Positions 7,380 through 62,224 of a stretch of DNA of 64,000 bases are shown one piece after another. The notes under the pieces are model-generated. The model had not been told where the DNA came from and made no database searches. It worked only from the letters and a program-made list of their open reading frames with translations. The first letter of the stretch is position 1. Every line of letters begins with the position of its first letter. The position numbers were made by a program, and so were the translations under genes. The DNA comes from a virus: positions 1-64,000 of IMG/VR virus record IMGVR_UViG_3300025617_000018; one strand, written 5' to 3'.

Positions 7380-7408
7380 ATTATACTGTTTATTTTAATA
7401 AATGTCAA
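7380..7408 (-). promoter_or_regulatory. Sigma70-type promoter for clpA-like gene
   Basis: On the minus strand TTGACA (7403-7408) is followed by a 17-base spacer and TATAAT (7380-7385). Predicted +1 is near 7373, about 30 bases upstream of the ClpA-like start. It sits in the intergenic gap after the J-protein gene, giving early control of the unfoldase. Confidence 0.85.
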
Positions 7409-13067: not shown

Positions 13068-14203
13068 GATAAAATCTCCACGATTCTTTCTGCTAATTGT
13101 TTAAACCATTCAGCGTCCCTGCCTCGTGTAGTTTCTGCAGCTGTGCCAAGTCTGATACCACTTGTTTCTACAAAACTTCGTGGATCATTTGGTACGCCGT
13201 TCTTGTTTACTGTGATGCCATTCTCTTCCAATAAGTCTGCGGCTTCGCGACCTGAATATTTACTTTCACTCAAGTCAAGTAATAGTATATGACTATCTGT
13301 GCCGCCTGTCAACAGTTTAAAGCCGTTGTCTACAAATACTCGTGCCATTGTCTGTGCATTTGCTACAACTGCTGAAGCATAGCTAATAAACTCGTCTGTG
13401 TTTGCTTCTGCGAATGCTTGTGCTTTAGCGGCAATAATATTCATTAATGGTCCGCCTTGGGTTCCTGGAAAAATAGCTGAGTTGATCTTTTTAGTAAAGA
13501 ACTCGTCGTTCCAAAGAATAATACCTCCTCTAGGACCGCGTAGCGTCTTATGTGTAGTACTAGTGACCACATCTGCATAATCGCACGGATTAGGATATGC
13601 TTTGCCTGCGATCAGACCACTGTAATGTGCCATATCGACCATAAAGATTGCTCCTACTTGATCTGCAATGTGTCTCATCTTTTCCCAGTCAATTCGTCTT
13701 GGATATGCACTTGCACCTGCTATAATCATAGAGGGTTCTACTTCCAGTGCTTGTTTCATAATGTCATCATAGTCCAGCCAACCTTCATCGTTTACACCAT
13801 AACTGTGTGCTTCAAACCATTTGCCACTAAGGTTAGCAGGAGAACCGTGTGACAAGTGTCCACCACTTGCCAGGTCCATGCCTAAGATTTTATCACCTGG
13901 TTCCAAGAACGCTTTGAAAACAGCCAAGTTAGCATTAGCACCGGAGTGTGGTTGAACATTGGCAAACTCACAACCGTAAATAGCTTTTAGCTCGTCTATT
14001 GCAAGTTGTTCAATTTCATCCATATGTTCACAACCGTTGTAGTAACGCTTGCCTGGATAACCTTCTGCGTACTTGTTAGTAAAACAACTACCTGCAAGAT
14101 CCATAACAGCATCACTGGCAAAGTTTTCACTTGCAATCAATTCTATTGTTGTAGTTTGTCTATGTGTTTCTTTAGCGAGAATATCACTGATTCGTTGATC
14201 CAT
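13064..14203 (-). CDS. glyA: Serine hydroxymethyltransferase
   Basis: A 379-aa SHMT of the PLP fold-type I group. The PLP lysine is K219 in TSTTHKTLRGPRGG, with D190 and H193 (VDMAH) around the cofactor and the YAEGYPGKRYY substrate loop at 45-55. It makes 5,10-methylene-THF from serine and THF, the one-carbon donor used by ThyX. It is about 35 residues shorter than bacterial GlyA, lacking the end of the C-terminal domain after SGIRLGTAAETTRG, but all visible catalytic residues are kept. AAAGGA lies before the ATG. Confidence 0.93.
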   Translation of the reverse strand: MDQRISDILAKETHRQTTTIELIASENFASDAVMDLAGSCFTNKYAEGYPGKRYYNGCEHMDEIEQLAIDELKAIYGCEFANVQPHSGANANLAVFKAFLEPGDKILGMDLASGGHLSHGSPANLSGKWFEAHSYGVNDEGWLDYDDIMKQALEVEPSMIIAGASAYPRRIDWEKMRHIADQVGAIFMVDMAHYSGLIAGKAYPNPCDYADVVTSTTHKTLRGPRGGIILWNDEFFTKKINSAIFPGTQGGPLMNIIAAKAQAFAEANTDEFISYASAVVANAQTMARVFVDNGFKLLTGGTDSHILLLDLSESKYSGREAADLLEENGITVNKNGVPNDPRSFVETSGIRLGTAAETTRGRDAEWFKQLAERIVEILS

Positions 14204-18948: not shown

Positions 18949-18956
18949 TATTTATC
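18949..18956 (-). promoter_or_regulatory. Late-type promoter box GATAAATA
   Basis: Minus-strand CGATAAATA directly upstream of the 119-aa gene; the same nine bases occur at 11565 and 20326, supporting it as this phage's late element. Predicted +1 is near 18943. Confidence 0.6.
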
Positions 18957-19473
18957 GTAAGAACTCTCGCCAATCTAGGTTATATTGGATTGAATTAATA
19001 CGATGTACACCTATTAAATATAATACATACGATGCTACACTACTTCCGCGTCCGACTCCCCACACAACACCATTCTCACGCATAAAGTCTACAAGATAAA
19101 TCATATACTGAAGCAAAGGCATCATATTACGACTTGCAAACTCTCCAAGTTCTTCTGCACATCTTTCTGTTTCTTCTTGCGTTTCACACTTTGTAAGAAT
19201 ATAGTTGTGTACATTTAGTGTTTTATATTCATCAGGCATAAACCATTCGCCTTGACATACACCGTCAAACGTTTTTTGATCCACATCTAAAGGAATATAT
19301 TTTTGTAGAGGATCTAGGCCTTGCTCTTCCATAGCGGCGTTGAACTTATCTACATCATCATTTGCGTCGCATAATACCACATGAACTTTATCCGCATGAC
19401 CCGAATAAATCATATCGATTAAGTCGCGATTAGAGAATCGTGGAATACCTAGTTCGTCTGTTTTCATAAGCAT
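18952..19473 (-). CDS. DnaE-like fragment (DNA polymerase III alpha, GRGS region)
   Basis: A 173-aa protein whose C-terminus (VVWGVGRGSSVASYVLYLIG, then INSIQYNLDWREFLR) matches the bacterial DnaE segment containing the GRGS nucleotide-binding turn and the following LGIT...PL.YNL..ERFL stretch. The catalytic PDxD aspartates, which come just after this point in DnaE, are absent because the protein ends there. It therefore cannot be a polymerase by itself. It may be a remnant, or a phage-specific protein built from the PHP/palm junction. The ATG at 19467 is an alternative start. Confidence 0.65.
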   Translation of the reverse strand: MLMKTDELGIPRFSNRDLIDMIYSGHADKVHVVLCDANDDVDKFNAAMEEQGLDPLQKYIPLDVDQKTFDGVCQGEWFMPDEYKTLNVHNYILTKCETQEETERCAEELGEFASRNMMPLLQYMIYLVDFMRENGVVWGVGRGSSVASYVLYLIGVHRINSIQYNLDWREFLR

Positions 19474-19482
19474 TAATGTATT

Positions 19483-19713
19483 TTAACTTACATTGATAAG
19501 ATTGTCAAGATCAGAATTGCCATTTTCTTCTTGCTGGCGTTTTGCTTCTATTCTTCTGCGTTCGATTTCAAGTTTTAAGGAATCTAATGCCAATGTTATT
19601 TGGTATTGGATATCAGCATTAGTAGTCATAAAGTATTTTCTTTGTAGATCAATGATTTGATTTTCTAGTTCTACATCTGTAAGATTAGACAAATCATTAA
19701 TAAGCGGATGCAT
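19483..19713 (-). CDS. Small helical phage protein (76 aa)
   Basis: A 76-aa, highly helical protein (residues 12-62 with heptad character, many Glu/Arg/Gln) beginning MHPLINDLSNLTD. It overlaps the upstream fibre-like gene by one base. Comparable small coiled-coil proteins accompany tail genes in marine T4-like phages, but I cannot name it; a fibre assembly chaperone is possible (inference). Confidence 0.65.
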   Translation of the reverse strand: MHPLINDLSNLTDVELENQIIDLQRKYFMTTNADIQYQITLALDSLKLEIERRRIEAKRQQEENGNSDLDNLINVS

Positions 19714-34427: not shown

Positions 34428-37400
34428 TTAGTTATCTCTAAATAGCCAACCGTTGATAAAGTTGTAATATACAAGTGTAAATGCAGCTCTATCTGAATCG
34501 ATCAACAAGTCTTGTGAAACGCCTTGTATTCTTTGAGCATTTCTACCTATTGTAATATTATTTGTTGATGCTGTTCCTGCTGCATCAATAATAGTTATTT
34601 GATCACCAATACTAGGACTTGCTGGTAGCGTTAATGTGATTGCGCCATTTGTAGTATTAGCAAAGTACTGTCCGCCTGACACAAGTGTAGTATTACCAGT
34701 TACTTCTACGAACGGCGGCGAACCAGCAGTAGCGTTGGTCCATTCGCCTAAACCTGAGTTGTATACTAAACTTTGTCCGTTTAAAGGAGTAGTTACTTGA
34801 ACGTCTAGCAAGTTATCAAGACTAGCAACACCTTGACTTAGCACAAGAATGTTGCCTCGCATGTTTGCTCCATGATTTTGACATTGGTATACAAGATTAC
34901 TAGGTGCATCCATGGGCACTACCCATTCAGTTACTCCGTCAGTGGTGCTTGCTCCATCCGTGTACGCTACTCCGTCATACTCTTCTCTAATCACAAAAGG
35001 ATGCGCAAGATAATTCACACTGTTGTCAAACACATACTTCATGCCACGAACAAGAATCAAATCTGGATCGTTTGTAGCAGTTGGAAATCCTGGACCTGTA
35101 AAAATATAATTTGATGTACCGTCAACGCCAAGTGTAAACTCAATAACTGGTTCAGATGAAATATTCAAATCGTCATTGAAGTCACTGAGATTTTCTGGAG
35201 TATTTGTAAGATTCGTATAGTTAAGATAATATGAACCTTGTTGCCCGTCTAATGTATCTGCATCTATATTCAATCCGTCGACATATGTTTTGTCAACTAC
35301 ATTTTGTACTTTAGCATCTGTGTAATAAAGATTAGTAGTACCTTCTGTTAAATCATCACTGTCAAAGTTTGAAAGAGTTGATACTGTACCAGTTATGTTA
35401 CCTACAATATTTGCAGCTAAACTTTGTCCTTGTGTGCTCCAGCGATTATTTGTTTCGTCCCAAATAAACTGCACATTAACATCGTCGCCACGTTCAATTT
35501 CGATACCAGCATTTTGTGTTGCAGAACCTGTAGCATTAGAGTTTAGTACAATAATATTATCTGCTAGATTAATAGTTTCTGTGTTAACTGTGGTAGTTGT
35601 GCCATTTACAGTTAAATTACCGTCTACACGTACATCGTTGAATCTAACATCGCTCGCAATTCCTACAGCCTGTCCAATAGCAATCTGTCCGTCAGTGATA
35701 GTAACACCTGTACCTGCTGTAACAGGATCAGGACCAACATACGAGAATACGCCAGTTAGTGGACTGTAACTTAAACTTCCTGCACCTGAACTAGATACTG
35801 AAAACTCGGATCTAGCTCTTGCTTCAGTGTAGTAAAGATTAGTAGTACCTTCGCTTAAATCGTCTGTTGACTTATTACCAAACTCTGTGTTAAACTGAGA
35901 AGTACTAAATCCTTCGCCTGGAATCCATTTATCATTATCTGCATCATATAATAATGTTTCGCCATCTGCGGGTGCATCTGTGGTTAAATCAACATCTCGC
36001 AAATCACCTAAGTCAGTTCTAACAATCCTATCATCAACTCTAGCATCTGTGTAGTAGAGATTTACCAGTCCTTCTGTTAGTGCGTCTGTTGTAAGATTAT
36101 TAAGATTAGCAACCTGTCCATTTACATTACCAGTGAATACAGCATTAGTGCCGTCTGTGCCATTTTCTAATACTTTAGTTCCGTCTGCGGCAAGTATATC
36201 ACCTATAACATTCCCTGACATCTGTCCAGTAACTGAACCTATAGTAACGCCGTTTGCTGTTACACTGTTAGCAGTTAAAGCATCAAATGTACTTGTACCT
36301 GTGCTTGCTGTAACATTACCAATTAATCCACCAGTAAATGTAGCATCAGTTCCGTCTGTTCCGTTTTCTAATACTTTAGTGCCATCGGCAGCTAGTACAT
36401 CGCCTTTTAAGTTACCGTCTGTGGTTCCTGCTGTTTGTCCAAGGATAACACCGTTAACATTAATGTTGTTAAATATACTAGTTCCTGAAGTAACTTCAAC
36501 ATTGCCATAGAAAATAGCATCTTCGTTTGTGCCTGTACCTGCGTCTACAACAGTAGTAGTGCCATCGGCAGCTAGTACATCACCTATAACATTACCAGTT
36601 AAGTTACCTGTAACATTACCAGTTACATTTCCTGTTACATTTCCTGTTAGGTTACCAGTTACATCACCGTCTAAGTTACCCGTTACATCGCCGTCTACAT
36701 CACCTATGAATGTTGCGGTTGTAGGATTTACTAATACGGTTATACCATCTGCTCTGTATACAGGACCAAATAGTCCACCTGTTACGTCACCTGTTAAATC
36801 GCCAACAAAGTCTGCTTCGACTTGATTGAAAGTAACGTTTTGATCTGTAGCAACATTCTGCCCAATACTAATAGTACCACTGCTTACAGTAACACCAGTA
36901 CCGCCTATGATTGTTGAATCAATGTTTGCAGTACTAAAATATTTGTTTGTTGTACCTTCAGTTAAATCATCTGATGTAAAGTTTGTAATATCGCTTACTT
37001 GTCCTGTAACATTACCAGTAACATTACCAGTAACATCGCCTGTAACATCACCTGTTACGTCACCTATTAGGCTACCGCGAAGTGTTCCATCGTTGCTGAC
37101 AATAACAGAGGAATCTTGTCCTACTATGTTACCGTAGTAGATAGCATCTAAACCGTTTACACCATTCTCTAATATTGTTGCGCCGCCTTCTGCCTTGATA
37201 TGTCCTTGCATATCTCCGTCATGTAAGCCAAAAGTTGTTCCAGTTACATTACCAGTTAAGTTACCAACAAAGCCTTGTGGTGCTTCTAGTTTTTTGTTTA
37301 CTCTCCAAGCATCTGGAATAGCAAAATATTTTATTGTGGCGTCTGCACCGTCAACTAATAGACCTGCACCATTGGCGTCAAAGTTTGTCTCAGCTCCAGC

Positions 37401-50059: not shown

Positions 50060-50347
50060 ATGTTAGTAGAAGAGATTAGAGTAAAGAATTCTTACACACG
50101 AGAGTCAAAACTAGGCAAAGAACATGTATACACTAGATTTAAAACTGTGTTAAGATTTATCTGCGACTGCTGTGAAAAGGAGTTTTTTAGAGACAGAGGA
50201 AATATGGATCCTAATAGGATTAACAACAACTACTATCATGTATGCGGTAACTGTGATGCTAAACGATTTGCACAAGAAAAGGGTGTAGATAAACGGAGAA
50301 TATGGAATATCGGTGTGAATACTGATATTCCTATTAATAAACTCTAA
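50060..50347 (+). CDS. Small Cys-rich zinc-finger-like protein, rightward
   Basis: A 95-aa basic protein with CDCCEKEF (residues about 35-42) and HVCGNCD (about 60-66), two Cys pairs that could hold one zinc in a treble-clef or ribbon fold. It may be an HNH-type remnant or a DNA-binding regulator; no catalytic His pair is visible. It is one of two rightward genes, starting 70 bases from the divergent giant fibre gene and converging with uvsE with a three-base overlap of stops. Confidence 0.65.
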   Translation: MLVEEIRVKNSYTRESKLGKEHVYTRFKTVLRFICDCCEKEFFRDRGNMDPNRINNNYYHVCGNCDAKRFAQEKGVDKRRIWNIGVNTDIPINKL

Positions 50348-51384
50348 CTAGCTAAAAGTAATGAGTCTTTGTTTACGTAGTCTTCCCAAAGTTTAATACT
50401 AGCAAGGTTTTTTGCCTTGCTCTCCGCCATTATATCTGCGTGGTCTAAAAATTGAATGGCCCATTCATTACATGCATTATTCCAATAATAATCACTGTGA
50501 GCACGAAGTTTACCTTTCTTAAATCCTGCGTCTAAAAGTTCTTCCATTACAGGTTTAACATCTGGATTCCAACCATGCATGTATCCTTCTGTGCTTACAC
50601 TATAATGAATAACAGGACGCTCTCCGCGCCAAGAATCTACTATGCGCTTAAATCTATCGTCGGTTGGTAGAATGTATTCACCTTCACGGACCCAGTGATG
50701 GTGCACATCCAATACAAGTGCAAGATCGTTGGCGAGCTCAAGGCTTGCGTCGATGCCCCACGAGACTTCGTCGTTTTCGATTGTGATGGTGTTTCTTGCT
50801 TCGGGGCTGAGTCGCTTGAGGGCTTCTTTGATACCTTGCGGCCCTTTTCTACCCGATATGTGTACATTGCACTTAAAGTCTTGGAAGGTTCTACCGTAGC
50901 CCATCCACCTGGCCATATCAGCATGATACTCGAACTCCTCTATACTTCTATTTACTATATCGGGAGTTTCACTAGCAAGTACAGTAAACTGCCCAGGGTG
51001 AAAAGATAAACGGACGTCATTATCGCGAGCAAGATCCCCAACCCTTGCAAACGCTCGTTCGCAATAGTCGCGCACGTCGAGACGCCGCCAAAAGTAGCTC
51101 CAACTGCGTTCAGTATAAACAGGAAGACAATCACTGCCCAACCTGACCATTCTAAGCCCATCGGGCAATCCTCCTACATATTTTACAAGATTGTAATAAC
51201 TTTGAATGTTGTGTTCCATGATGTCCCATAGACGCTGTTCTGCATCTTCGCGAGTTTGACGATTAAGCCAAGCCACTGTGGTACTGCGAGTGTTAAGGGG
51301 ACGCTGAATTTCTTCAAGTAGTTTTTTCTTCTGCGTTTGATCTGAATGCATGTACTTGCATGCGAAGCCTATACGTTTTTTCAT
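50344..51384 (-). CDS. uvsE: UV damage endonuclease UvsE/UVDE
   Basis: A 346-aa UVDE-family TIM-barrel endonuclease. Recognisable segments are RLGSDCLPVY, LSFHPGQFTVL (metal His), CNVHISGRKG, ITIENDE, LVLDVHHHW and KLRAHSDYYW, which carry the His/Glu/Asp metal ligands. It nicks 5' to UV photoproducts and starts alternative excision repair; marine surface phages gain UV tolerance. The upstream frame opens at 51486, but the ATG at 51384 begins the conserved KKRIGFACKY and lies exactly six bases after a TATAAT box, which suggests a leaderless mRNA. Confidence 0.92.
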   Translation of the reverse strand: MKKRIGFACKYMHSDQTQKKKLLEEIQRPLNTRSTTVAWLNRQTREDAEQRLWDIMEHNIQSYYNLVKYVGGLPDGLRMVRLGSDCLPVYTERSWSYFWRRLDVRDYCERAFARVGDLARDNDVRLSFHPGQFTVLASETPDIVNRSIEEFEYHADMARWMGYGRTFQDFKCNVHISGRKGPQGIKEALKRLSPEARNTITIENDEVSWGIDASLELANDLALVLDVHHHWVREGEYILPTDDRFKRIVDSWRGERPVIHYSVSTEGYMHGWNPDVKPVMEELLDAGFKKGKLRAHSDYYWNNACNEWAIQFLDHADIMAESKAKNLASIKLWEDYVNKDSLLLAS

Positions 51385-51390
51385 AATTAT

Positions 51391-51419
51391 ATTATATTGC
51401 CTGTGTTGTTGTTTGTCAA
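51391..51419 (-). promoter_or_regulatory. Sigma70-type promoter for uvsE, leaderless geometry
   Basis: TTGACA (51414-51419), 17-base spacer, TATAAT (51391-51396) on the minus strand, all consensus. Six bases separate the -10 box from the ATG at 51384, so the expected +1 is the A of ATG. The -35 box overlaps the stop of the glycosyltransferase gene. Confidence 0.88.
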
Positions 51420-54821: not shown

Positions 54822-54841
54822 GTAAGTATTTATCTACTTAC
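54822..54841 (-). promoter_or_regulatory. Late-type promoter within a 7-bp inverted repeat, leaderless geometry
   Basis: GTAAGTA/TACTTAC arms (54822-54828 and 54835-54841) surround a six-base loop; GATAAATA occupies 54827-54834. Five bases separate the box from the ATG, placing +1 on its A. Read-through RNA would have a hairpin touching the start codon; RNA from this box would not. Confidence 0.55.
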
Positions 54842-56050
54842 CTTAAGTATCACAGTCTCCTCATTGACCCTTCCGTTGAGTTTTGTATCTGTGGTATTAA
54901 TATCTTCCAAGAACTTACGCAGTGCTACCTTGCCCGAGCTCTTAAATGTTTTTAGTTGTTCTTCTGGTTTGCGTAGAGTCTTTTGTACGCTGGTGATTTC
55001 GTTATAACCTACTAGACTTGTACCTTTTACAGTAATAGGGCCTGTCATGTCATCCGCGATATACTTGCCTAGTTTGCGATTTTTAGTATTAAATACCCAA
55101 ACTTCTTTTGCTTCAATAAGATCTAATGGATTTACACTTACAATAGAATATTTGTCATCCTGCTTTTTATATTTTAGTTTTGCAACTAGTTTGTCTTTGC
55201 TAGGTGCTTTCTTAATTCTAGGCTTACGAGTTGTTTTTGCTTTTTCAATAATCATGTCACAAGCATTTAAAATCTTTTCTAATCCTTCTAAAAACTTTTT
55301 AGCATCTGCTTTAGCAAGGTGTGCATATCCTTCACGGAATTGTTGTGCAAGATCTTTTTCTAGCTCGTCTTTGATTTTTGCAATCTGTTGCGGAGTAGGC
55401 ATGTGATTTACAACTTCGTTGTATTCTTCATACTCGCCTGTGTAAAACTCTCTAATCTTACGAGCATGGGCTTGTGTTACACCTAATTCTGTGAAGTGTC
55501 CTAAAAAGTTAAAGTCTTTCTTTGTTTCAACATATGTGTCTAACCATTCGTCGATAGCACCACATGCTTTAATAGACTGTTCGCGAATACGATCTTGGAT
55601 TGTAGGAACATACACATTCTTTTTAGCGGCTTCCTCTGCTTTTTCTTCTGCAACAACTTCTTTGCCTGCAATTACTGCTAGGTCAACTTGTTGTTTTATA
55701 AACTCGTTGATATCACGCATCTTGCCAGATACACCTTCAAGACCTTCCCAGTACTCTGCATGCTTGTCATAGTAACTAGGAACACCCATTTCTAACATCT
55801 TAGCATAGATGCCGCAAGTAGAGTTTACGCCTACTGCTCGTGCTTGTTTGATATCTTGTGCAGAATACTCATGTGTCTTCATCCACTTCCATACATGAGC
55901 TAATAGGTCACTGGCTTTAAACTCACCGTAGATATAATCACGCATTGCATTTCGTTGTTGATGAAACTTTTGTGGACTCCAAGATTCATAACCCGTGAAG
56001 TCTGGGCACAGTGATTTTATTTTTGCACGTTTTGCTTGTTTAGCCGCCAT
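54830..56050 (-). CDS. Conserved phage protein, helical and basic (406 aa)
   Basis: A 406-aa, mostly helical protein with a Lys/Arg-rich middle (RKPRIKKAPSKDK near 295) and a beta-rich C-terminal third. No catalytic motif is recognised. It is driven by a strong sigma70 promoter (56076-56104) and has AGGAG before the ATG, so it should be expressed early and well. Basic stretches suggest nucleic-acid contact (inference). Confidence 0.68.
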   Translation of the reverse strand: MAAKQAKRAKIKSLCPDFTGYESWSPQKFHQQRNAMRDYIYGEFKASDLLAHVWKWMKTHEYSAQDIKQARAVGVNSTCGIYAKMLEMGVPSYYDKHAEYWEGLEGVSGKMRDINEFIKQQVDLAVIAGKEVVAEEKAEEAAKKNVYVPTIQDRIREQSIKACGAIDEWLDTYVETKKDFNFLGHFTELGVTQAHARKIREFYTGEYEEYNEVVNHMPTPQQIAKIKDELEKDLAQQFREGYAHLAKADAKKFLEGLEKILNACDMIIEKAKTTRKPRIKKAPSKDKLVAKLKYKKQDDKYSIVSVNPLDLIEAKEVWVFNTKNRKLGKYIADDMTGPITVKGTSLVGYNEITSVQKTLRKPEEQLKTFKSSGKVALRKFLEDINTTDTKLNGRVNEETVILKVSR

Positions 56051-56075: not shown

Positions 56076-56104
56076 AGTATATATGCCTTGAGAGGAGTTG
56101 TCAA
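56076..56104 (-). promoter_or_regulatory. Sigma70-type promoter (TTGACA, 17, TATACT)
   Basis: TTGACA (56099-56104), 17-base spacer, TATACT (56076-56081) on the minus strand. Predicted +1 is near 56069, 19 bases before the ATG at 56050, leaving room for the AGGAG ribosome site. Confidence 0.88.
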
Positions 56105-56375: not shown

Positions 56376-57680
56376 TTATATTTTTTCGTCAGCTTCGAAT
56401 CCGCGGAAGGTTTTGAACCTTGGGAAGCGAAGCGAGTAAGTGCCGTCTTGATTTTGCGTAATAGCATCTGCTCGTACCTCTACTAGATTGTTAATAAGAG
56501 CGTCCCTGCTATTCCAATACTCATCCCTGTGAACGTCACTAAAGCCACTACCCACATTAACGCGGATAGCTTTTCCATCGTCGATCCCTTCGCAAACGAT
56601 TGCTCCAAGTCGACCACTGTTTCTTCCAGTACCTTCTTCAACTTCTACCACCTTTAGTGTTACTTCAATAAATGGTTTTGCTTTTAACCATGCATGAGTT
56701 CGTTTGCATTCATAAGGAGCATCAACGTCCTTAATCATAACTCCTTCGTATCCACCGTCTACAGCCGCTTTATTAAGCTCTACAAAGCGACTTTGTCCTT
56801 CAGGAGAGTCTAAGTCAACATCTTCCCAGTCCAGTGCTTGTACGTGTTTTAAGACGTCTTTATGCTCCTCTACCCAGTGCTTGGTAATAGCACTACGGAA
56901 ACTCTGTGGCTTATCCCACGAACCTGCTTTGAAACAACCTAGTGGAATTGTGTCAAACAAATGTAGTACAGCGTCAGTGCTTTGCTTTCCGTCTTTGCGA
57001 TGCACTTGCTTCATAAGATCTTGGAAGTCTGAACTCATTACTTCACCGTCTAATACTAGCGGATACGGCACAGGATATTCTGCAACAACTGCTTCAAGTT
57101 CTTCAATAATGTGTCCAAAGTTATGAAACTGTTTTCCGTTGCGCGAGAACATTTCTACTTTGCCATCTTGGATAACAGTTAGCACACGAACACCGTCGAG
57201 TTTGATTTCAATCTGTTTCTTACCAATCATTTTCTTTTCATGGTTAGCTGAATCGTGTGCAAGAGCACAAGTAAATACAGGCACTGTGCCTGGTACTACT
57301 TTGTTTACAGTCTTTTCACTTACACCACATCGCAAGTCTTTGATAAGGATACGACGATACCAATCGTTCCATTGTGCTTGTGTTGCTACATCCATTGCCA
57401 GTAGGATAGCGTCTCTCGCTGAATGTCCAGTCAGTTCGCGGGCGATTAGTTTGTTTGCAAGTTCTACAAAAGCAGTCCAAGGAAGTCCTTGTCCATCGTC
57501 TTCTGTTTTACTAGGAACTTGTTTAACACCAAATGTAACAAGAGGATCAAGTGTCATACGCAAGCCGTCAAAAAACTCTGGAAGTCCTTCTTCGTGTGCA
57601 ACACGAATAATATCTTCTTTGTTTAAGCGACTATTGTGAATTTCAAGTTGACGGATAATGTAATCAGGCTGTGTACGCAT
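56376..57680 (-). CDS. 30: ATP-dependent DNA ligase (T4 gp30-like)
   Basis: A 434-aa ATP-dependent DNA ligase. The adenylation lysine lies in motif I KLDGVR (K160 from this start); later motifs are LDGEVM (IIIa-type), EGVMIKD (IV) and AWLKAKPF (V). The first 150 residues are the helical DNA-binding domain found in T4-type ligases. It seals nicks in replication and repair. The frame opens at 57716, but that ATG is only two bases after a -10 box; the ATG at 57680 has AGGGG six bases upstream and fits a transcript starting near 57711. Confidence 0.92.
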   Translation of the reverse strand: MRTQPDYIIRQLEIHNSRLNKEDIIRVAHEEGLPEFFDGLRMTLDPLVTFGVKQVPSKTEDDGQGLPWTAFVELANKLIARELTGHSARDAILLAMDVATQAQWNDWYRRILIKDLRCGVSEKTVNKVVPGTVPVFTCALAHDSANHEKKMIGKKQIEIKLDGVRVLTVIQDGKVEMFSRNGKQFHNFGHIIEELEAVVAEYPVPYPLVLDGEVMSSDFQDLMKQVHRKDGKQSTDAVLHLFDTIPLGCFKAGSWDKPQSFRSAITKHWVEEHKDVLKHVQALDWEDVDLDSPEGQSRFVELNKAAVDGGYEGVMIKDVDAPYECKRTHAWLKAKPFIEVTLKVVEVEEGTGRNSGRLGAIVCEGIDDGKAIRVNVGSGFSDVHRDEYWNSRDALINNLVEVRADAITQNQDGTYSLRFPRFKTFRGFEADEKI

Positions 57681-57718
57681 GTAATCCCCTGCTGTTGTAA
57701 ACTTTAAGTCGTTCATAT

Positions 57719-57746
57719 ATTATACACTCTTGTTGGTTTTTGTCAA
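57719..57746 (-). promoter_or_regulatory. Sigma70-type promoter for DNA ligase (TTGACA, 16, TATAAT)
   Basis: TTGACA (57741-57746) and TATAAT (57719-57724) on the minus strand, 16 bases apart. Predicted +1 is near 57711, inside the first codons of the longer ligase frame, which argues for the downstream ATG at 57680. Confidence 0.88.
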
Positions 57747-60103: not shown

Positions 60104-60303
60104 GGTTTGAATTCTCCAAAAACATCTGGTGCTTGTTCTTCAGCTAGGTCCATGTAGTAGGTGCTAGGATAATGTTTCAAACAACGATACGCCTGTTCTC
60201 GAATATACTTTGGAACTCGTGGAGTCTTACTAGGATCCATCAAATCTTTTAAAAACTGTTCTGTGTTAAGAACTGCGTGTTTGCGTTCAATAGGTAGTGT
60301 CAT
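60100..60303 (-). CDS. Small conserved protein, BPSL0761-like (67 aa)
   Basis: A 67-aa helical protein with the pattern LPxERxxAVxxTxxFLxDLxD..TPRVPxxIRxxAxxCLxHYPS, which I associate with the small BPSL0761-type family of bacteria and phages; its function is unknown. It overlaps gp4 upstream by one base. Confidence 0.62.
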   Translation of the reverse strand: MTLPIERKHAVLNTEQFLKDLMDPSKTPRVPKYIREQAYRCLKHYPSTYYMDLAEEQAPDVFGEFKP

Positions 60304-60689
60304 TAGAACAACTCCTTCTCTGTTAATACTTTAAACTCATAGCCCATTTTGTTACAGTAGTCTTCTGCAGAACTCCACTTGGCTCGATTCTTTTTATATT
60401 TACGCTGGAAGTGTGGTTTGATCTCTACAACAATGGTTCTGCCGTCGTAGGTCTTTACAACAAAGTCTGGGTAGTAGTTGTGCCACTTATCATCGTCTTC
60501 GAAGTAATAAGGAATGTGTAGTTCTTCCGAACTCCACTGTACGATCTTGTCACTGCGGTCACAGTACAACATAAAACGTCTTTCCCACATACTTCTGTAG
60601 GTGATGCGATTTATATTGCCTGCATACTTTGCAGGATATTGCGGCTTGTACTTGCCGCGGATTGCTGTTAATGCATTTGACTTTTTCAT
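60303..60689 (-). CDS. 4: Head-completion protein/nuclease (T4 gp4-like)
   Basis: A 128-aa protein like T4 gp4 (50), needed to finish filled heads before tail joining. The segment ITYRSMWERRFMLYCD and the PD-(D/E)XK-type nuclease residues are seen (E36; P74-D75 in NYYPDFVVK; E89 and K91 in VVEIKPH). T4 gp4 homologues may trim DNA at the portal. The ATG is exactly six bases after a TATACT box, so the transcript may have no leader. Confidence 0.85.
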   Translation of the reverse strand: MKKSNALTAIRGKYKPQYPAKYAGNINRITYRSMWERRFMLYCDRSDKIVQWSSEELHIPYYFEDDDKWHNYYPDFVVKTYDGRTIVVEIKPHFQRKYKKNRAKWSSAEDYCNKMGYEFKVLTEKELF

Positions 60690-60695
60690 ACTAAC

Positions 60696-60723
60696 AGTAT
60701 ACTATATTTTTATACCGTGTCAA
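60696..60723 (-). promoter_or_regulatory. Sigma70-type promoter for gp4, leaderless geometry
   Basis: TTGACA (60718-60723), 16-base spacer, TATACT (60696-60701) on the minus strand. Six bases lie between the -10 box and the ATG at 60689; +1 would be the A of ATG. No alternative Met exists before residue 34. Confidence 0.82.
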
Positions 60724-60730
60724 CCGAAAA

Positions 60731-60814
60731 TGGAGTGAGCGACAGGACTTGAACCTGCATAGTCTTACGACACGGATTTGCAATCCGTTGCATAACCATT
60801 TCTGCCACGCTCAC
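60731..60814 (-). tRNA. tRNA-Cys (GCA)
   Basis: Minus-strand cloverleaf with a 7-bp acceptor (GTGAGCG/CGCTCAC), T73 (a Cys identity base) and encoded CCA. Anticodon loop TTGCAAA gives GCA. The anticodon arm matches bacterial tRNA-Cys. The variable region is 13 bases, GTC-GTAA-GAC-TAT, a 3-bp hairpin with a GNRA loop where tRNA-Cys normally has four or five bases. Confidence 0.92.
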
Positions 60815-60818
60815 ATAT

Positions 60819-60902
60819 TGGCACAGGGTGAGGGATTCGAACCCCCTGACTCTCGTCCTGGTTTTGGAGACCAGTGTGACACTCCAACTTCACCGACCCT
60901 GC
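60819..60902 (-). tRNA. tRNA-Trp (CCA)
   Basis: Minus-strand tRNA with acceptor GCAGGGT/ACCCTGT (one G-U), G73 and encoded CCA. Anticodon loop CTCCAAA gives CCA. D-stem GTGA/TCAC, T-loop TTCGAAT. The variable region is 11 bases and folds as GAC-GAGA-GTC plus A, again a 3-bp hairpin with a GNRA loop. Confidence 0.9.
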
Positions 60903-60913
60903 ATTGTCTTTAT

Positions 60914-60942
60914 ATAGTAAGTTCTTTTTTGAATGTTGTCAA
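60914..60942 (-). promoter_or_regulatory. Sigma70-type promoter before tRNA-Trp/Cys
   Basis: TTGACA (60937-60942), 17 bases, TACTAT (60914-60919) on the minus strand. Predicted +1 is about five bases upstream of mature tRNA-Trp, so this serves the Trp and Cys tRNAs. Confidence 0.75.
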
Positions 60943-60949
60943 CCAGAAA

Positions 60950-61024
60950 TGGAGCGGCGAAGGAGAATCGAACTCCTATCCACAGGGTGGAAGCCTGTTA
61001 TAATAGCCATTATACGACCGCCGC
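60950..61024 (-). tRNA. tRNA-Gly (TCC)
   Basis: Minus-strand class I tRNA: acceptor GCGGCGG/TCGCCGC, T73, encoded CCA, anticodon loop CTTCCAC (TCC), T-arm AGGAG/CTCCT with TTCGATT. Variable loop is the normal four bases (GGAT). Its 5' end touches the stop codon of the 68-aa gene. Confidence 0.92.
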
Positions 61025-61230
61025 TAAATTGCTATGCCTTCTAACAAGTTCCAACCGCCTGTAATACCGTGATCATTACCAGTCTTGATACAAACAGCAT
61101 ATGATCCAGTTTTATACTTACGGTTATAAGTTTCTAGGTACTTGTTACGCACGGCATAAGTGTAGTTTATGTTATCTGCTTCTCGTCTAATAGTTTTTCC
61201 ATTAGACATTTCTACTTCAACCCAATACAT
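61024..61230 (-). CDS. Small hypothetical protein (68 aa)
   Basis: A 68-aa protein with an N-terminal beta hairpin-like stretch (MYWVEVEMSNGKTIRREA) and a Tyr-rich helix. No family is recognised. It ends on the first base of tRNA-Gly and overlaps the exported-protein gene by one base, so mRNA and tRNAs are probably co-transcribed and separated by tRNA processing. Confidence 0.6.
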   Translation of the reverse strand: MYWVEVEMSNGKTIRREADNINYTYAVRNKYLETYNRKYKTGSYAVCIKTGNDHGITGGWNLLEGIAI

Positions 61231-61541
61231 TATATACTTTCACCTGGTTCAAAAAACTGGAAGTTTTGACCACTTGTAAATACGCAAGTAGTATTGTTGT
61301 CTTTGTTGACAACTAAAAAACTCCAAGTTTGTGTTTCCGTATTTACCCAAAGTGAATTATATAAAGGGCTGCTATTGCCTTGTGATATGCCCTCACTCAA
61401 AAAAACTAGTTCTTCATTGTACTTATTTTTAACAATATTCAGTACGTCTTGTGTTGGACCACACTGCACAGGTATTTCGTATGTTTTTGCTTTTACTGGT
61501 AGGACAATGAGCAAGAACAGTGCCAATACAATATATTTCAT
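61230..61541 (-). CDS. Exported protein with signal peptide (103 aa)
   Basis: A 103-aa protein with a clear signal peptide (hydrophobic residues 3-17, cleavage after VKA at about 18) and a small mature domain with two cysteines that may pair in the periplasm. No family is recognised. The ATG at 61541 has GGGAG six bases ahead; that ribosome site lies within a strong hairpin (61548-61562), so translation may be restrained. It is embedded in the tRNA cluster. Confidence 0.68.
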   Translation of the reverse strand: MKYIVLALFLLIVLPVKAKTYEIPVQCGPTQDVLNIVKNKYNEELVFLSEGISQGNSSPLYNSLWVNTETQTWSFLVVNKDNNTTCVFTSGQNFQFFEPGESI

Positions 61542-61547
61542 TTTAAT

Positions 61548-61562
61548 CTCCCGTCGCGGGAG
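61548..61562 (-). promoter_or_regulatory. Hairpin containing the ribosome site of the exported protein
   Basis: CTCCCG-CGA-CGGGAG on the minus strand: six G-C-rich pairs and a three-base loop. The 3' strand contains GGGAG, six bases before ATG 61541. Bases 61563-61644 upstream hold no gene I can support. Confidence 0.6.
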
Positions 61563-61644
61563 CAGTTTCAAGACTTACTCGGGTCCTACCTTTCCTGGGC
61601 ACCACTTGCTTGATTATTTTAAAAGAGAAACAAGACTCTTTAAA

Positions 61645-61721
61645 TGGTGCCGTTGAAGGGAGTCGAACCCCCAACCTTCTGGACCTAAACCAGACGCCTC
61701 TGCCAATTGGGCCACAACGGC
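61645..61721 (-). tRNA. tRNA-Leu by anticodon (TAG), class I body
   Basis: Acceptor GCCGTTG/CAACGGC, A73 and encoded CCA. Anticodon stem TCTGG/CCAGA with loop TTTAGGT gives TAG. The D-arm (AATTGGCAGA) resembles Leu tRNAs. The variable region is only five bases (AGGTT) instead of the long arm of bacterial tRNA-Leu, and the T-stem has two G-U pairs. Aminoacid identity is therefore less sure. Confidence 0.8.
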
Positions 61722-61738
61722 ATATATTGTATTTATAC

Positions 61739-61813
61739 TGGTGCTCACGGAGAGAATCGAACTCCCAATCTACGCATTACAAGTGCGTTGCCTTACCGTT
61801 GGGCCACGTGAGC
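61739..61813 (-). tRNA. tRNA-Thr (TGT)
   Basis: Class I tRNA on the minus strand: acceptor GCTCACG/CGTGAGC, A73, encoded CCA, anticodon loop CTTGTAA (TGT), four-base variable loop AGAT, T-loop TTCGATT. Confidence 0.92.
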
Positions 61814-61821
61814 ATACTATT

Positions 61822-61911
61822 TGGCGGAGATAGTAGGATTCGAACCTACGGAACGATTTCTCGTTCGACAAGTTAGCAACCTGCTGCTTTAAGCCACTCA
61901 GCCATATCTCC
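61822..61911 (-). tRNA. tRNA-Ser (GCT)
   Basis: Class II tRNA on the minus strand: acceptor GGAGATA/TATCTCC, G73, encoded CCA, anticodon loop TTGCTAA (GCT), T-arm GTAGG/CCTAC. The variable arm is a 6-bp stem GAACGA/TCGTTC closed by a GAAA (GNRA) tetraloop. Confidence 0.92.
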
Positions 61912-61914
61912 TTG

Positions 61915-62118
61915 TTCGGGACTGTCTTTCTGCTAGGCAAGGCGCAGTCATTCCGAATAAAAGTGGAGTGGGTGGAATAGGGTAACCACCAAGGAAGTAC
62001 TATCCGAAGTACCTTTCTTCACTAGACTTCCTACGTCCTGCACCTCGCTAAAGGACCGGCGCTACCGGCTTTCGGACTACCTTACCCCCCTTCGGCGAGA
62101 GGTATTCGGTCACACTCC
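61915..62118 (-). ncRNA. Candidate structured RNA A between tRNA-Ser and tRNA-Asn
   Basis: About 200 bases with no ORF, much richer in G+C than the surroundings. In minus-strand sense, GGAGTG (62118-62113) pairs with CACTCC (61970-61965), enclosing ACCTC/GAGGT, a CCGG-TAGCG-CCGG hairpin, an AGGTAC/GTACTT hairpin and GGTGG/CCACC. A second domain pairs TTCGG/CCGAA and GACTG/CAGTC (61915-61957). It lacks the tRNA-like end of tmRNA and the conserved cores of RNase P RNA as far as I can see. Processing from the tRNA transcript would give a discrete RNA. Confidence 0.5.
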
Positions 62119-62142
62119 TTTTAGAGTCCGTCGACTCTAAAA
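62119..62142 (-). other. 10-bp hairpin just after tRNA-Asn
   Basis: TTTTAGAGTC-GACG-GACTCTAAAA (minus strand), perfect 10-bp stem and 4-base loop, one base from the tRNA-Asn CCA. No T tract follows, so it is not a classical terminator; it may be a processing or protective element for candidate RNA A or the tRNA 3' end. Confidence 0.65.
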
Positions 62143-62143
62143 C

Positions 62144-62224
62144 TGGCTCCCAAGGTTGGATTCGAACCAACATTGCTTTCGCACGGATTAACAGTCCGCT
62201 GTATTACCTATCTACCACTTGGGA
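62144..62224 (-). tRNA. tRNA-Asn (GTT)
   Basis: Acceptor TCCCAAG/CTTGGGA, G73, encoded CCA; anticodon stem GCGGA/TCCGT with loop CTGTTAA (GTT); T-arm GTTGG/CCAAC. The variable region is 11 bases, GC-GAAA-GC-AAT, a mini-hairpin with a GNRA loop in place of the usual five bases. Confidence 0.92.

Follow-up and report, generated by a model that had tools for sequence, protein, structure and literature searches.

Promoters six bases from the start codon suggest systematic leaderless transcription in a clade of jumbo phages

Two genes on the minus strand of a viral DNA fragment, uvsE and gp4, carry a promoter so close to the ATG that transcription would be expected to begin on the start codon itself, which raises the question of whether such leaderless messages are two isolated cases or a regular feature of this virus and its relatives. 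The fragment, called the window here, is a stretch of 64,000 nucleotides from an IMG/VR record whose full length is 64,286 bases. A 94-kb contig (G007) is the same virus, with 99.998% identity across 63,257 bases, and the largest relatives reach 357 kb, so the window virus looks like a member of a clade of large T4-related myoviruses. Named phages are distant: Paride (Pseudomonas) and other jumbo phages match a DNA polymerase fragment, NCTB matches UvsE, cyanophages and a Rhizobium phage match gp4, and a megablast search with the end of the window against the phage collection gave no match. One relative of 335 kb (L400, PBPT01000016.1), probably a phage genome, is binned within a Neomarinimicrobiota metagenome-assembled genome, and another contig of this bin (G013 C77) seems to repeat a portion of it. 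The bin is weak evidence for the host, because its remaining contigs have no excess of the 6-nt pattern described below.

The promoter of uvsE reads TTGACA-17-TATAAT-ataatt-ATG on the minus strand and is a full sigma70 consensus. Its -35 hexamer lies at 51414-51419 and its -10 hexamer at 51391-51396, with a 17-nt spacer and six nucleotides to the ATG at 51382-51384; the geometry that an earlier note on this DNA had claimed for uvsE is therefore confirmed, with a sigma70 -35 at 17-nt spacing. Two TATAAT hexamers share one base here, and of the two only the upstream hexamer has the 17-nt spacer to TTGACA. The gene (50344-51384), predicted to be leaderless, encodes a UvdE UV-damage endonuclease of 346 aa (PF03851, E 2e-37; phrog_8420, 8e-77) and is separated from the preceding ORF by about 30 nt. 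No Shine-Dalgarno-like stretch stands ahead of the ATG. This first ATG is the correct start because the PHROG homology begins at residue 4; the second methionine, M12, is also without a ribosome site. Among the relatives of uvsE, 37 of 53 distinct upstream sequences contain a strong promoter, and the distance from the -10 to the ATG is 5-7 nt in 18 of these (mostly exactly 6) and at least 29 nt in 16; none of the 37 promoters is at 8-28 nt, and in three no in-frame ATG was found.

At gp4 the arrangement is TTGACA-16-TATACT-gttagt-ATG, again on the minus strand, with the -35 at 60718-60723, just 3' of a tRNA-Cys gene, the -10 at 60696-60701, a 16-nt spacer and the six bases to the ATG (60687-60689) that had been claimed. 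The predicted leaderless gene (60303-60689) encodes a gp4-like head completion/closure protein of 128 aa (phrog_218 head closure, E 4e-40, match from residue 9; also PF08722). There is no Shine-Dalgarno-like stretch ahead of its ATG, and since homology runs from residue 9, the next in-frame ATG, 105 nt past the -10, would truncate the conserved domain. The statement that gp4 has neither a ribosome site nor an alternative methionine thus stands, while the description of both promoters as early is unsupported, gp4 being a head gene. When the upstream regions of gp4 relatives were read by eye, the promoter proved lineage-specific: most relatives are without it, and L004 and L009/L010, among the closest, share the spacing of 6. 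Seven tRNA genes occupy 60731-62224, and the tRNA-Trp gene among them has its own promoter, TTGACA-17-TACTAT, with the -10 at 60914-60919. The same order of tRNA, promoter and putative leaderless gene is seen at 36130-36246 of the cultured Xanthomonas phage XacN1.

Promoters were scored with a fixed, sigma70-like matrix, and the distance was taken from the -10 to an ATG opening at least 60 codons, the gene starts being mechanical calls. A scan of the whole window revealed a third site of the same geometry, TTGACA-17-TAAAAT-6-ATG at 19471-19508 on the minus strand, in front of a DNA polymerase III alpha fragment gene (18952-19473, 173 aa, also predicted leaderless; phrog_11127, 3e-45; PF07733). 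Here the -35 (19503-19508) lies within the end of the upstream ORF, the first three bases of the -10 (19480-19485) are the stop codon of that ORF, and the ATG (19471-19473) starts 9 nt past a stop codon. The fragment is a stand-alone 173-aa protein common to jumbo phages of several hosts. Of the 53 distinct sequences upstream of this gene, 52 keep the 6-nt gap, with TAAAAT, TAAACT, TAATAT or TAGTAT as the hexamer, and the six bases before the ATG vary. Under the -35, the upstream ORF has CTT for Leu and GAC for Asp, each in 52 of 52 sequences; elsewhere in the same ORFs CTT makes up 21% of Leu codons and GAC 24% of Asp codons, and a fully conserved Leu three codons further on is written with six different codons. 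These frozen synonymous codons mean that selection at the -35 acts on the DNA rather than on the protein. A gap that persists while its sequence drifts, together with these codons, bears out the leaderless geometry proposed from the first two genes.

Altogether, three of the 23 strong promoters in the window have the spacing of 6. When promoters were displaced by 60-400 nt (680 displacements), the mean number at this spacing was 0.10 and the maximum 2, never 3. Other strong window promoters are 23-72 nt from start codons, with a clear Shine-Dalgarno sequence in most: on the minus strand, the TATAAT at 7380-7385 of a ClpA-like gene is 35 nt from the ATG, with AGGAG, and the TATACT at 56076-56081 is 25 nt from the ATG of the gene at 54830-56050, with AGGAGA. 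A near-consensus TTGACA-17-TATACT (13284-13289, minus strand) lies inside the serine hydroxymethyltransferase gene.

The DNA ligase promoter is a separate case. It reads TTGACA-16-TATAAT (57716-57745, minus strand) and leaves only 2 nt to the first ATG, so that the transcript would lack this codon; translation more probably begins at the ATG at 57680, after AGCAGGGG. The ligase N-terminus, MNDLKFTTAGDYM (57680-57716, minus strand), is found again in relatives, where it extends UvsE at its N-terminal end (MDLKFTTAGDFM, MNDLKFTTCGDYV; the loci are L085, L086, L104, L122, L129, L135 and G005:108557), and also close to the end of a different ORF in G009. That DLKFTTAGDY, which the ligase and some UvsE proteins have in common at their N-termini, is just an untranslated leader seems less likely, as synonymous variation points towards a peptide. 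This short peptide, common to unrelated proteins, is possibly a docking tag.

In nine contigs from relatives (1.69 Mb in total, with 483 strong promoters), which belong to one clade and so are not independent samples, the distances from the -10 to the ATG are bimodal, with a spike at 6 nt followed by a hump from 29 to 34 nt. Exactly 6 nt is found in 35 genes, 5 nt in 7 and 7 nt in 9; the stretch from 8 to 20 nt is sparse, with about 1.8 genes per position, and 81 genes fall at 29-34 nt. Displaced promoters averaged 2.6 and never exceeded 11, against the 35 observed, and the spike holds at all score thresholds from 8 to 13. In a separate control, the reversed pattern gave 2 hits against 33. Even a noisy scan for the -10 without the -35 has a peak at 6 nt (50 vs about 30). 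Shine-Dalgarno sequences of at least 4 nt precede 10% of the genes at 5-7 nt, compared with 79% at 21-28 nt and 75% at 29-34 nt. The impression that the shared spacing of two promoters looked systematic is thus upheld over related genomes, with the loss of Shine-Dalgarno sequences limited to the class that carries the spike.

Further features distinguish the two classes. A pyrimidine directly precedes the ATG in 30 of 35 genes at spacing 6 versus 58 of 112 leadered genes (p=3e-4), which fits a -1/+1 initiator; leadered promoters have maxima of the YA step at both offset 6 and offset 8, so +1 is not fixed to a single base. The first 40 nt have a mean MFE of -2.05 in predicted leaderless and -3.12 in leadered genes (p=0.002), which is partly an effect of GC content (33% vs 38%). 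Start codons at 6 nt are ATG in 35 cases, GTG in 1 and TTG in 2, a count that does not discriminate, as GTG and TTG are rare in leadered genes too. The 58 close-promoter genes form 40 families, several of which retain the geometry at 50-87% protein identity. As we read the sequences, the predicted leaderless set includes a replicative helicase, a primase, a gp47-like nuclease, an RNase H-like exonuclease, a RecB-like nuclease and a dNMP kinase, along with uvsE and the polymerase III fragment; that many are replication, repair or nucleotide genes suggests, without proving it, early or middle expression.

The matrix was applied unchanged to other phages. In T4, NCTB, Paride and the initial 400 kb of Atu_ph07, the spike positions hold 0-1 genes. 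T4 early promoters have a different -35, and therefore a -10-only scan was added for T4, again with no 6-nt peak; the window clade does not match this T4-type layout, in which the -10 does not cluster 6 nt before starts. Pelagibacter phage Mosig has three genes at exactly 6 nt and a weaker signal (5 pattern hits vs 0 in the control). XacN1 (AP018399) resembles the clade in its bimodal distances (17 of its 205 promoters stand 6-7 nt from the ATG, in an independent spike, and a hump follows from 22 to 30 nt), in its loss of Shine-Dalgarno sequences (present in 1 of the 17) and in sharing the polymerase III fragment gene, but differs in its GC content of 50%. In six of seven XacN1 genes compared (ORF083, ORF088, ORF097, ORF110, ORF033 and ORF054) the annotated start is the predicted leaderless ATG. 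We found no published map of transcription start sites for XacN1 and no mention of leaderless genes in its literature.

We consider it probable, at roughly 0.82, that these viruses systematically use leaderless transcription from sigma70-type promoters, with translation by the leaderless route. A consensus promoter of the host type at uvsE, gp4 and the polymerase III fragment would place +1 on the first base of the start codon, and host RNA polymerase would presumably be the enzyme that initiates there. The resulting mRNA would be leaderless, with AUG at its 5' end, and this AUG would be bound by 70S ribosomes, as we infer, or by 30S subunits with fMet-tRNA. The clade would then possess two discrete layouts, one leaderless and one with about 25-40 nt between -10 and ATG and a Shine-Dalgarno sequence. 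The exact +1 on the A is predicted from the position of the -10 and the pyrimidine at -1.

A start site displaced by 1 or 2 bases would give a leader of 1-2 nt, and it may be asked whether polymerase in general starts a few bases before the ATG, so that the mRNAs are nearly leaderless, with leaders of 1-5 nt. The minor classes at 5 and 7 nt and the overlapping TATAAT hexamers at uvsE speak for this, whereas the sharpness of the spike at 6 nt and the pyrimidine before the A match initiation on the A itself, and we regard such short leaders as improbable. A somewhat better candidate, though still unlikely, is that translation proceeds chiefly from longer read-through mRNAs without Shine-Dalgarno sequences, by coupling or from A/U-rich standby sites, the close promoter being auxiliary and internal. 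Read-through RNA from upstream could indeed carry the uvsE, gp4 and polymerase ORFs: the genes share one strand with short gaps, the polymerase ORF begins just past a stop codon, and tRNA genes lie upstream of gp4. It would leave unexplained, however, the exact 6-nt gap and the empty range at 8-28 nt in uvsE relatives, and leadered genes of the same genomes retain their Shine-Dalgarno sites. Least probable is chance in a genome of 39% GC, where AT-rich DNA is rich in TATAAT-like words; the earlier note did rest on two cases, but the displaced-promoter and reversed-pattern controls already refute chance as a general account, and neither the lack of a spike in other AT-rich phages nor the frozen codons agree with it.

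Leaderless mRNA itself is familiar from bacteria and from individual phage genes. The cI gene of phage lambda is transcribed from PRM into an mRNA with a 5'-terminal AUG, and whole classes of transcripts (middle and late) are reportedly leaderless in Thermus phage P23-45, an unrelated siphovirus. The lambda message, discussed in PMC9031893, is a single one, whereas about 40 gene families are concerned across the present clade. The closest bacterial counterpart in layout is the TA-led gene of Zheng et al. 2011 (PMC3160421), defined in cellular genomes, where the -10 is the sole signal: both have TANNNT about 12 bp before the start, here exactly 12 from the first T, and no Shine-Dalgarno sequence, but the viruses have a full TTGACA-17-TATAAT promoter and two discrete layouts within one clade. 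Leaderless and leadered messages coexist in Caulobacter (PMC4117421) and Sinorhizobium (PMC3616915), as predicted here; those are cellular and proven by 5'-end mapping, while ours are phage messages predicted from sequence. The weaker 5' folding reported for Caulobacter leaderless mRNAs (PMC4117421) agrees with the first 40 nt in the clade. The AR9 paper remarks in passing that transcripts of phages are 'often leaderless' (PMC5312081); otherwise the literature searched yielded nothing on jumbo or T4-like phages that transcribe genes systematically without leaders. What is new is the extent of the pattern and its division into two modes, in a clade of jumbo phages that encode the ribosomal protein bS21 as well.

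A bS21 gene is present in eight of the 11 records tested; all eight belong to the clade, of which 10 records were searched. In G007 the gene lies at 82219-82368, about 19 kb beyond the window in the same virus. Phage-encoded S1 or IF3 was searched for and none was found. The clade shares bS21, present in most of its records, with the huge phages of PMC9723584, which does not mention leaderless genes. Any tie between bS21 and leaderless translation is a guess: it is conceivable, if doubtful, that the phage runs two initiation programmes, Shine-Dalgarno-led and leaderless, and that its bS21, which would adjoin the ribosomal anti-Shine-Dalgarno, shifts the balance during infection. XacN1 has the leaderless geometry though bS21 was not found in it.

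Leaderless phage messages are usually cited singly; here a whole clade of large phages from the environment, and separately the cultured XacN1, would have them, with almost nothing between the two modes. Gene callers that lean on Shine-Dalgarno sequences may misplace starts in such genomes. The two-mode design makes the role of leaderless initiation during infection directly testable, and the layout of the clade supplies a concrete hypothesis for phage bS21.
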